Shown here one piece after another: positions 23,261 to 35,490 of a stretch of DNA of 35,490 bases; position 1 is the stretch's first letter; each line of letters starts with the position of its first letter. The notes under the pieces were generated by a model. That model had not been told where the DNA came from. It worked only from the letters and a program-made list of their open reading frames with translations, and made no database searches. Source of the DNA: Chloroflexota bacterium (GTDB lineage: Bacteria; Chloroflexota; Anaerolineae; UBA2200). The position numbers were made by a program, and so were the translations under genes. The stretch covers positions 1 to 35,490 of the forward strand of contig JACIWW010000030.1 in assembly GCA_014360905.1 (NCBI GenBank), written 5' to 3'.

Positions 23261-23329
23261 CACCTTGTCGCATGGAGAAGCCCGCAAGGAGACCCGTTCG
23301 GCCTCCTCACATGGCAGCGGAAGAAACCA

Positions 23330-23363
23330 AAAACCCCAAGGCCTCAAGAAGCCTTGGGGTTTT
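23330..23363. terminator. Bidirectional intrinsic terminator
   Basis: AAAACCCCAAGGC (23330-23342) and GCCTTGGGGTTTT (23351-23363) form a perfect 13-bp stem with an 8-nt loop, flanked by A-run and T-run. It lies between the convergent response regulator (stop 23260) and DsbA-like gene (stop at 23366), so it can serve both. Confidence 0.9.
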
Positions 23364-23365
23364 GA

Positions 23366-24640
23366 CTATTGTGTCAAAGAATCCATTGCTTCCAACAATT
23401 CTTCTAGGAGCACGAGGTAACTCTGACTCCCCCGTATGAGCACAAACTGCGGTGCAGGCGGCAATTGGTTCCATTGTGCAATCATGACATCCTGTTCCAC
23501 CTTAGCCCGCATCTGTCCTTCGTCTAGACAAGCGGAGAAAGCATCCGCATTCAGCCCCAATTCAGTCGCATACCCTTTCAACAACGGTAGGAAATCCTCG
23601 GCGTGGTTCCATTCCTGCTGCCGCTGGAAAAGCAGATCGTGCATGGCCCAGAAAGCTCCCTGCTCCCCAGCGCATTCCGCTACCTCGGCTGCTCTGTACG
23701 CTTGATCCGTCTCCGGAAAATGCTTGACCACCACCCGTACCTTGCCTGCGTCCACGTATTTCTTCAGTTTGGGCCAGGTTTCCAAAAAATAGCGGTAATT
23801 CGTCTCGCTTGCAAAATCAACGAACTCGAGCAACAACAGGGGCGCCTCGGGTGCACCCAGGGTAATATCGCCGCTGTAGGTATAGCCTGGGTGCTCTGGA
23901 TTGGCAGCAAAGGGCACAGGAGTTGGCACTGGATGCTCGTTGCGCAGCGCTGCTTCGATCACCTGTTGGAATGTCGCAAAGGATTTGGCACCAGACAGAA
24001 ACCAGTCGTTGATGAAAAAGGCAGGGATTCCTGTGACTCCCATGGCTAGACCCTGCTCCGTTTCCGTCTGGACTTGAGCTGCCGTCTCCCCCGACTCCAG
24101 ACACGCTGCAAAAGCCTCTGCATCGAGACCTAGCTCGGTAGCATACTCCACAAAGCGGGTGGTCGCATCTGGCAATTCGTTCCATTCCTGCATCCGTGAA
24201 AAGAGCAGATCGTGCATAGCCCAAAAAGCAGCAACGCTTTGCCGGGCAGCGCATAGTGCTGCTTCAGAAGCCTTTTGTGCTTTGGGATGGACCAAGTAAT
24301 TGCGGAAGACTTGCTTGACCTTGCCAGTGGCAATGTATGCTTCATACAGAAGCGGACCCGTCTGGATGGCATGACGGGCACAATATGGTCAAAGGAATTC
24401 TCCGTACTCGAGCAACGTCACCGGTGCATTGGGATTGCCCCGGTAAGGTGCACCGTCTGCCGTGAATCCCATGGGAACCTCGCCGCTCGGCGTAGGCGAA
24501 GGCGTGACAAGAGTTGCTGTTGGCCTAGGAGTTGCTGTGGGGGAGGTGGCTGTGGAACCAGGTGCGGCAGGTGCGCTACAGCCAGCTATAAGCAATGCCG
24601 CTAGGAGCAACCCCAAGCACTTCAGGAATTTGTATTCCAT
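23366..24640 (-). CDS. Two-domain DsbA-like lipoprotein with in-frame TGA at the redox cysteine (candidate selenoprotein)
   Basis: Read through one TGA (24391-24389), the frame gives 424 residues. Residues 1-21 are a lipoprotein signal (LIAGC, lipid Cys21), then a Thr/Pro-rich linker. Domain 1 (about 65-210) is DsbA-like: LLEYGEFL-[TGA84]-P-Y-C87-ARH and the cis-Pro GIPAFF. Domain 2 (about 230-420) is a second DsbA fold in which the active site reads S-E-T-N, so it lacks CXXC. The two domains share FWAMHDLLF and YATELGL, indicating duplication. ATG 24640 has GGGAGG 4 nt upstream, and the gene ends in TAG. TGA replaces exactly the first cysteine of CPYC, so selenocysteine (U-P-Y-C) is plausible; a nonsense mutation from TGC/TGT is the alternative. 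It probably acts outside the membrane in thiol redox chemistry. Confidence 0.75.
24356..24379 (-). promoter_or_regulatory. SECIS-like hairpin just after the in-frame TGA
   Basis: In the mRNA, CCCGUC (24378-24373) pairs with GACGGG (24362-24357), extended by one G-U, with a 10-nt loop. The stem begins 9 nt after the TGA and the loop starts 16 nt after it, the placement needed for a bacterial SECIS read by SelB. The loop begins A-U-G, so a guanine is at its third rather than first or second position, which is not canonical. Confidence 0.4.
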
Positions 24641-24688: not shown

Positions 24689-24717
24689 AATGTATACCTA
24701 TTCGCCTACCCTGTCAA
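24689..24717 (-). promoter_or_regulatory. Promoter of the DsbA-like gene
   Basis: On the minus strand, a perfect -35 TTGACA (24717-24712) and TACATT (24694-24689) are 17 nt apart, giving a start near 24682 and a 5' leader of about 42 nt. A small perfect palindrome, GCTAGTTTCTAGC (24671-24683), overlaps the start point. A functional promoter argues for an expressed gene. Confidence 0.6.
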
Positions 24718-24729
24718 ATAAGTACATCT

Positions 24730-25029
24730 CTAGCACAGCAGGTGCTTGGCAGCGCCTACCGTGTCCATTTGCAGACCGATGGCCCGCCCGCTGCATTGCT
24801 GGAAGCCCTACGACGCCTCTCTGATGTGGTCGAAGTTAGGCAAGACAATCATAGCCGCTACCAGGTGGCTGCTAGGAACGATGTGCGTGCCGAAGCGGCC
24901 AATGCTGTCGTGACCGCTGGCGGACGGCTGTTATCCTTGGACGTAGAAGCGCCAAGCCTGGATGACATCTATGCCCGCTACTTCGAGGAGGTAGAACATG
25001 TCGCTGCGGCTGAAGGAGCAAAGAACTGA
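24730..25029 (+). pseudogene. 3' remnant of an ABC transporter ATP-binding protein
   Basis: The open frame encodes only the end of a NatA/CcmA-type ABC ATPase: LAQQVLGSAYRVHLQTDGPP through VEVRQDNHSRYQV to LLSLDVEAPSLDDIYARYFE. Walker A, the signature motif and Walker B, about 200 residues, are missing. The homology starts abruptly near 24730, next to the -35 box of the divergent DsbA-like gene, so the 5' part was lost by a deletion or by insertion of that gene. The frame runs 32 nt into the permease start (24998), the usual ATPase-permease overlap. A GTG at 24742 could start a 95-residue peptide, but it would have no ATPase activity. Confidence 0.75.
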
Positions 25030-25983
25030 AGCAATCCGCGAGGGATCGCCCTGGACAGGACTGTGGGCAGTCGTTGCCAAAGAAATGGCTGACCACCTGA
25101 CCAGTGCGCGCATGCGCATTCTGGAAATACTGATGCTGGTGACTGCGGCAGGCACGGTGTATGCCGCCACGATGAATCTGCGCACCACTGTAGGCGAGGA
25201 TCCGTTCCTGCTGCTCAGGCTGTTCACGACTGAGTACGAACCACTTCCCGCTTTTGTTGGTTTTCTCGGGTTTCTGGTGCCACTTGTCGCTATTGCCTTA
25301 GCGTTCGATGCAGTCAACAGCGAATTCAACCGGCGGACGATGTCGCGCGTTCTGGCTCAACCATCTACCGGGATGCATTGCTGCTGGGCAAGTTCCTGGC
25401 TGGGCTCTTCACTCTAGCCTTGATTCTCACTGCGATCTGGCTGTTGATCATCGGCCTGGGCATCGTAGGGTTAGGAGTACCGCCCAGCGGAGAAGAAGTG
25501 GCGCGCAGTCTCTGGTTCTTGCTGGCCTCCATTTTCTTCGGCGGCATCTGGCTAGCATTGGCATTGGTGTTCTCCATCGTCTTTCGTCAACCGGCGACGG
25601 CAGCGTTGGCTTCCATTGCAGTGTGGCTCTTCTTCATGATTTTCTGGAGCATCATTGCGAGCTTGCTGGCGCAGACTTTGCAGCCGGTGCAGTACGGTTT
25701 TGCCAGTGAATTCTTGGCCCAAGCACAGTTGGAGTTGGCACTCAGCCGATTGTCACCCAACACACTCTACACCGAGATCATGCTCGCCCTGATGCATCCC
25801 TCGGTGCGTTCCGTCGGTCTGATCCTGCCCATCCAACTCCAAGGTGCTATCTTGGGCTCGACGTTGCCCCTCCATCAGAGCTTGCTGCTTATCTGGCCGC
25901 AATTGACGGGATTGATCGCAGCCCCTATTCTGCTCTTTGCCTTAGGCTACGTGCTCTTTCAGAGGCAGGAGATACGAGCCTAA
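24998..25983 (+). pseudogene. ABC-2 type permease, broken by a single-base frameshift
   Basis: The first part (from ATG 24998) reads into a hydrophobic permease N-terminus ([18 protein letters not shown], then [20 protein letters not shown]) up to [11 protein letters not shown] at 25362. The protein then continues in the next frame as [20 protein letters not shown] to the end FQRQEIRA at 25983, with four to five more transmembrane segments. Restoring one C (CAACCATC to CAACCCATC at about 25361) gives an uninterrupted ABC-2 permease of about 328 residues. Frameshift by a natural deletion in a C-run or an assembly error are both possible. With its ATPase partner truncated, natural decay is more likely. 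Confidence 0.8.

Positions 25984-35320: not shown

Positions 35321-35490
<170 letters not shown>

Follow-up and report, generated by a model that had tools for sequence, protein, structure and literature searches.

A DsbA-like lipoprotein gene of a Chloroflexota bacterium with an active-site TGA, probably decoded as selenocysteine through a two-hairpin RNA signal

A single in-frame TGA on the minus strand of the 35,490-nucleotide stretch of Chloroflexota DNA analysed here (the window) raises the question of whether this codon ends translation or is read as selenocysteine (Sec) and, in the latter case, which RNA signal directs the reading. The frame in question runs from ATG 24640 to 23366 and translates as 424 codons followed by TAG, its sole internal stop being the TGA at 24391-24389. 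The codons around it read LLEYGEFL-TGA-PYC-ARH, with the TGA (codon 84) occupying the position of the first cysteine of the DsbA C-P-Y-C motif, and the 340 open codons downstream include a cis-Pro motif, TGIPAFF, whose Pro codon lies at 24025-24023. An earlier note on this DNA had described such a frame, open but for one TGA and with a cis-Pro motif, and the translation reproduces it exactly. If the TGA encodes Sec, the gene (23366-24640) specifies a lipoprotein of 424 residues with a U-P-Y-C nucleophile, at the same codon as in its homologues.

Both Thioredoxin_4 (PF13462, 174.3 bits) and DSBA (PF01323, 79.8 bits) match this protein above their Pfam gathering scores, each in two stretches; it therefore consists of two DsbA-like domains in tandem. 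Domain 1 (residues 63-229; 23954-24454, minus strand) carries the UPYC site together with the cis-Pro at 24025-24023 and is the only one to possess a CxxC/UxxC active site. Domain 2 (23381-23896, minus strand) lacks active-site cysteines, with FASETN in place of CxxC; it has probably lost its redox cysteines and would then serve a structural or substrate-holding role. Cysteine 21 of a lipobox, LIAGC (24578-24580, minus strand), can be read from the translation, and together with the Pfam matches it agrees with the earlier description of a DsbA-like lipoprotein. Further elements can be read from the sequence of the minus strand: a Shine-Dalgarno element, gggaggt, stands immediately upstream of ATG 24640, a probable sigma-70-type promoter, TTGACA-17-TACATT, is predicted at 24689-24717 with the same promoter-like spacing found upstream of the gene of a congener, and an intrinsic terminator hairpin with a 9-bp stem and a run of five Ts (23329-23359) follows the TAG.

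Profile searches of the genome from which the window derives, a 2.83-Mb draft that is 96% complete, located selA (583.8 bits), selB (347.6 bits), selD (377.1 bits) and a tRNA-Sec with anticodon UCA (70.3 bits), so that all four genes for which the earlier note had proposed a search, selC among them, are present. In the GTDB family, selA occurs in all six genomes examined. The selD gene (L019 109-1212, contig G000:C38, minus strand) likewise contains an in-frame TGA (AAGUAAK), and the genome thus holds at least two selenoprotein candidates. Near selD, on the same strand, lies a frame whose translation resembles an enzyme of the cysteine-desulfurase type. Two contig ends, at window positions 35402-35476 (plus strand) and at G000:C12:79915-79989, match the selB profile over its first 25 positions with equal scores, as one would expect from a break of the assembly at a duplicated translation-factor gene, probably tuf.

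A scan of contigs for relatives returned one alone, the congener (G001; the same gene as MAG-37, L021), which has TGC at the active-site codon and is the only Cys case in the GTDB family. Three other genomes of the same family (G003, G004 and G005) contain tandem genes of the same build with TGA at that very codon. Beyond the family, the family profile, applied to 298 genomes of the class, detected dozens of copies that each hold a single TGA, which in the extracted ones falls at the UxxC position. The alignment of homologues at codon 84 that the earlier note had called for hence gives TGA in three same-family genomes and across the class, and Cys (TGC) in the congener. From these comparisons the TGA is not a product of chance, since it recurs at the same active-site codon in three genomes of the family and in many more of the class. 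In a tree of 124 domains, domain 1 of the window lies inside a clade of 12 rows, 11 Sec and one Cys (support 100/95), in which the congener supplies the lone Cys row. Because the presence of a TGA was among the grounds for selecting rows, the number of Sec changes in the tree is not used as a result; on the simplest reading, Sec would be ancestral in the clade of the window and the congener would have reverted to Cys.

Sec is also found in other repeats of multi-domain DsbA proteins, namely in domain 2 (L095), in domain 3 (L080 and L097) or in domains 1 and 3 (L066), the other repeats of these four proteins having either Cys or no cysteine. One further frame (L083, G018:C24) has two in-frame TGA codons in its neighbouring DsbA domains 1 and 2 (UPFC and UPAC) and is a candidate double-Sec DsbA.

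In the subgroup to which the window belongs, the DNA downstream of the TGA is much more similar between copies than the protein demands, and covariation, RNAalifold and folding all point to a two-hairpin, SECIS-like element that spans 24338-24391 of the minus strand, TGA included. Hairpin H1 (24357-24378) has arms at 24378-24373 and 24362-24357, and hairpin H2 (24338-24354) has arms at 24354-24349 and 24343-24338 around the loop UGUAU at 24348-24344. Numbered from the T of the TGA, the arms of H1 are 14-19 and 30-35 and those of H2 are 38-43 and 49-54, the latter enclosing UG[GU]AU, an apical loop that begins after 40 nt from the UGA in this subgroup; in the window itself H2 has C.A in place of its outermost pair, which leaves UGUAU on 5 bp. 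The window element folds into both hairpins at -18.5 kcal/mol (z -3.4), and none of 200 shuffled sequences was as stable. A covariance model, R1, matches the window at 24335-24391 with an E-value of 3e-20, the window being among the sequences from which the model was built. An Rfam scan of the region returned no relevant curated family.

Among 25 distinct sequences, 97.0% of paired cells are complementary, as against 89.6% after shuffling and 34-44% when slid, changes on both sides occur in nine of the 12 pairs, and RNAalifold predicts exactly these 12. Compensatory changes are seen at all six H1 pairs, and several lineages (L109, L113-L117) have unrelated stems in place of H1, in exactly the same register. 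The covariation in H2 comes from one sequence, L066 domain 3, in which CATCTC-TGTAT-GAGATG is fully compensated with three compensatory pairs; H2 is otherwise nearly invariant, a conservation that is partly by construction as most sequences of the set were picked by the H2 pattern. The synonymous-codon comparison draws on a separate set of domains, found by protein profile. At codons encoding the same residue, identity in Sec copies reaches 0.75 over codons +1 to +18, compared with 0.45-0.52 elsewhere, and is 100% at codons +10 and +12 to +16; in Cys homologues it is flat, at 0.43-0.46 throughout.

Which of the two hairpins SelB would recognize is a separate matter. In the published bSECIS model the apical loop has 3-9 nt, with a G in its first two positions, and lies 16-37 nt from the UGA (PMC13188914). 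Sec could be inserted with H1 alone as the SelB signal, H2 being conserved for other reasons such as ribosome pausing or the protein sequence: H1 stands at the usual distance from the UGA, its loop within the published norm of 16-37 nt (PMC13188914), and shows the stronger covariation. This arrangement is nevertheless unlikely, because the H1 loop of 10 nt is unconserved and without a constant G, and the stem sequence is freely replaced, whereas the H2 loop is always UG[GU]AU, in keeping with the published G[G/U] rule, even though the residue encoded there alternates between Tyr and Asp, and the codons of H2 are frozen in Sec copies only. In-range candidates in the window are confined to 4-bp stems not common to the group, and across the group such alternatives are mostly short and unshared. 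With H1 folded out, 18 nt remain between the UGA and the H2 loop, close to the 17 nt of a related set of single-domain proteins, the UxxCRxxV group; on this anatomy H1 is most likely a spacer and H2 likely the SelB ligand.

The earlier note had also weighed against its own candidate a simple TGC-to-TGA nonsense mutation amid decaying neighbours. The decay itself is real for the adjoining ABC transporter, remnants of which occupy window positions 24742-25983 on the plus strand: the match to the ABC-2 permease profile is divided over two frames (24998-25414 and 25378-25980), and of the DrrA-like ATPase next door a C-terminal piece alone remains. The syntenic stretch of the congener (L021 2585-4760) has long frames where these genes are broken and, as its selenoprotein counterpart has TGC, a recent change of TGC or TGT to TGA that made a pseudogene and now ends translation would fit both observations. 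Set against this, dN/dS relative to the congener amounts to 0.15 upstream of the TGA, to 0.085 in the part of domain 1 downstream of it and to 0.108 in domain 2. These values are rough because dS exceeds 1; by this measure, the sequence after the TGA is under purifying selection (dN/dS about 0.09-0.11). The covarying RNA element downstream of the TGA, the complete Sec machinery, the recurrence of TGA at this codon across genera of family and class and the nesting of the window in a Sec clade argue in the same direction, so that a pseudogene is very improbable and already contradicted at the level of the clade; post-TGA selection and the RNA element in particular tell against the simple nonsense mutation. 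Less credible still is a leaky codon, at which general readthrough or near-cognate suppression would insert Trp or Cys in place of Sec: UGA codons with a C after them are sometimes leaky, but the analysis found no evidence in support, SelA/B/C/D are present and the TGA holds the exact position of the redox nucleophile in many genera.

When 396 genomes of the class were searched for the pattern TGA-N35-GCTTCTGKATGAAGC, it matched 26 times, always in a DsbA-like UPxC frame, and its reversed control never did. The idea that the element might serve other genes found no support, as a search with the covariance model in 400 genomes of the phylum and 30 chosen genomes gave strong matches only at DsbA-like sites; among the weak matches one lies in a RecF-like frame and another was read as DNA only. 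Two Cys homologues keep most of the element, which means that its retention alone is no proof of current use. In L154 (1501-1560), one of the strong model matches, a TGT codon is accompanied by an almost intact element, and in the congener (L021 6247-6303) a TGC codon is followed by a near-intact pair of hairpins; both are probably fossils of Sec-to-Cys reversion. The congener, with its decaying signal, may then represent such a reversion caught early.

Taken as a whole, the internal TGA of this gene is almost certainly read as Sec. The candidate U-P-Y-C selenoprotein of the earlier note is upheld by the Sec machinery and by same-codon TGAs in family and class. We infer Sec insertion itself from what the sequences show, namely the position of the TGA, the machinery, the conservation of the codon, purifying selection and RNA covariation. 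The product would be an exported, lipid-anchored thiol oxidoreductase of two DsbA-like domains, in which UGA codon 84 is decoded by the SelA, SelB, tRNA-Sec and SelD of the genome, the active site of domain 1 thereby becoming Sec-Pro-Tyr-Cys. H2, with its G[G/U]-containing loop UG[GU]AU, would be the likely SelB ligand, and H1 would fold out 22 nt (positions 14-35), bringing H2 to a normal effective distance of ~18 nt, which resembles that of the one-hairpin signals of related genes (17 nt in the UxxCRxxV group). We consider this complete reading, an exported Sec-PYC lipoprotein decoded via a two-hairpin signal with H2 as ligand and H1 as spacer, highly probable on the sequence evidence.

A wider proposal, which we favour with some reserve, is that these genes define a distinct bacterial SECIS class. 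The first of its two hairpins would be a spacer of free sequence that folds out 22 nt and so gives SelB access to the second, 40 nt from the UGA; tandem and triple DsbA selenolipoproteins of one Chloroflexota class would use such signals, and genes that reverted to Cys would retain them as fossils. A 2026 review noted that some bacterial selenoprotein genes misfit the bSECIS model and suggested that distinct classes exist (PMC13188914), and it is on this point that the recoding signal bears. Because one protein family in related genomes displays three signal geometries, with loops at 17, 29 and 40 nt, the spacing rule and the spacer hairpin become testable on close sequences; searches under the 16-37 nt rule can miss genes of this kind. 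A search of the open-access literature found no account of a bacterial SECIS with two hairpins, and the signal is apparently a new variant.

The selenoprotein itself belongs to an already catalogued family and adds one more member to it. Its two domains together score 296.5 bits against NCBIfam NF041057 (Rcas_1661 family thioredoxin-like (seleno)lipoprotein), above the curated cut-off of 190, and singly 179.8 and 110.4 bits, each below that cut-off. The family is listed as 'DsbG-like protein, UxxC' in the same review (PMC13188914); open-access papers naming the family by locus tag were not found. The shared features are a DsbA-like domain, a lipoprotein nature and Sec as the first residue of UxxC. 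However, the NF041057 model describes one domain of 247 positions, whereas the window protein has two, the second without cysteines, and the single-domain UxxCRxxV members form a tree clade (100/99) separate from that of the window, grouping in the tree being our own criterion of membership and not that of the curators. Their RNA signal also differs from the window's. A CGUGN loop at 17 nt is present in almost every member of the UxxCRxxV group, and the majority of the single-domain UxxCxxF group have a loop at 29 nt, GUU for example; both arrangements fit bSECIS. Other DsbA-like selenoproteins (PMC1794560, PMC13188914) share Sec in a DsbA-type active site but may represent another subfamily, and the text consulted describes no tandem with an inactive second domain.

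With the bSECIS consensus, the window element has in common a hairpin after the Sec-UGA inside the coding sequence, a small loop with an early G[G/U] and a stable stem, its -18.5 kcal/mol for both hairpins together passing the published threshold of MFE <= -7.5 kcal/mol. The two part company in distance, the H2 loop lying 40 nt from the UGA and so outside 16-37 nt, and in the additional covarying hairpin between the UGA and H2. The selD gene of the same genome provides a contrast, as it likewise has an in-frame TGA beside the full Sec machinery, but its fold has a hairpin with a GUU loop at 33 nt, within the published range, as opposed to 40 nt for H2 of the window.
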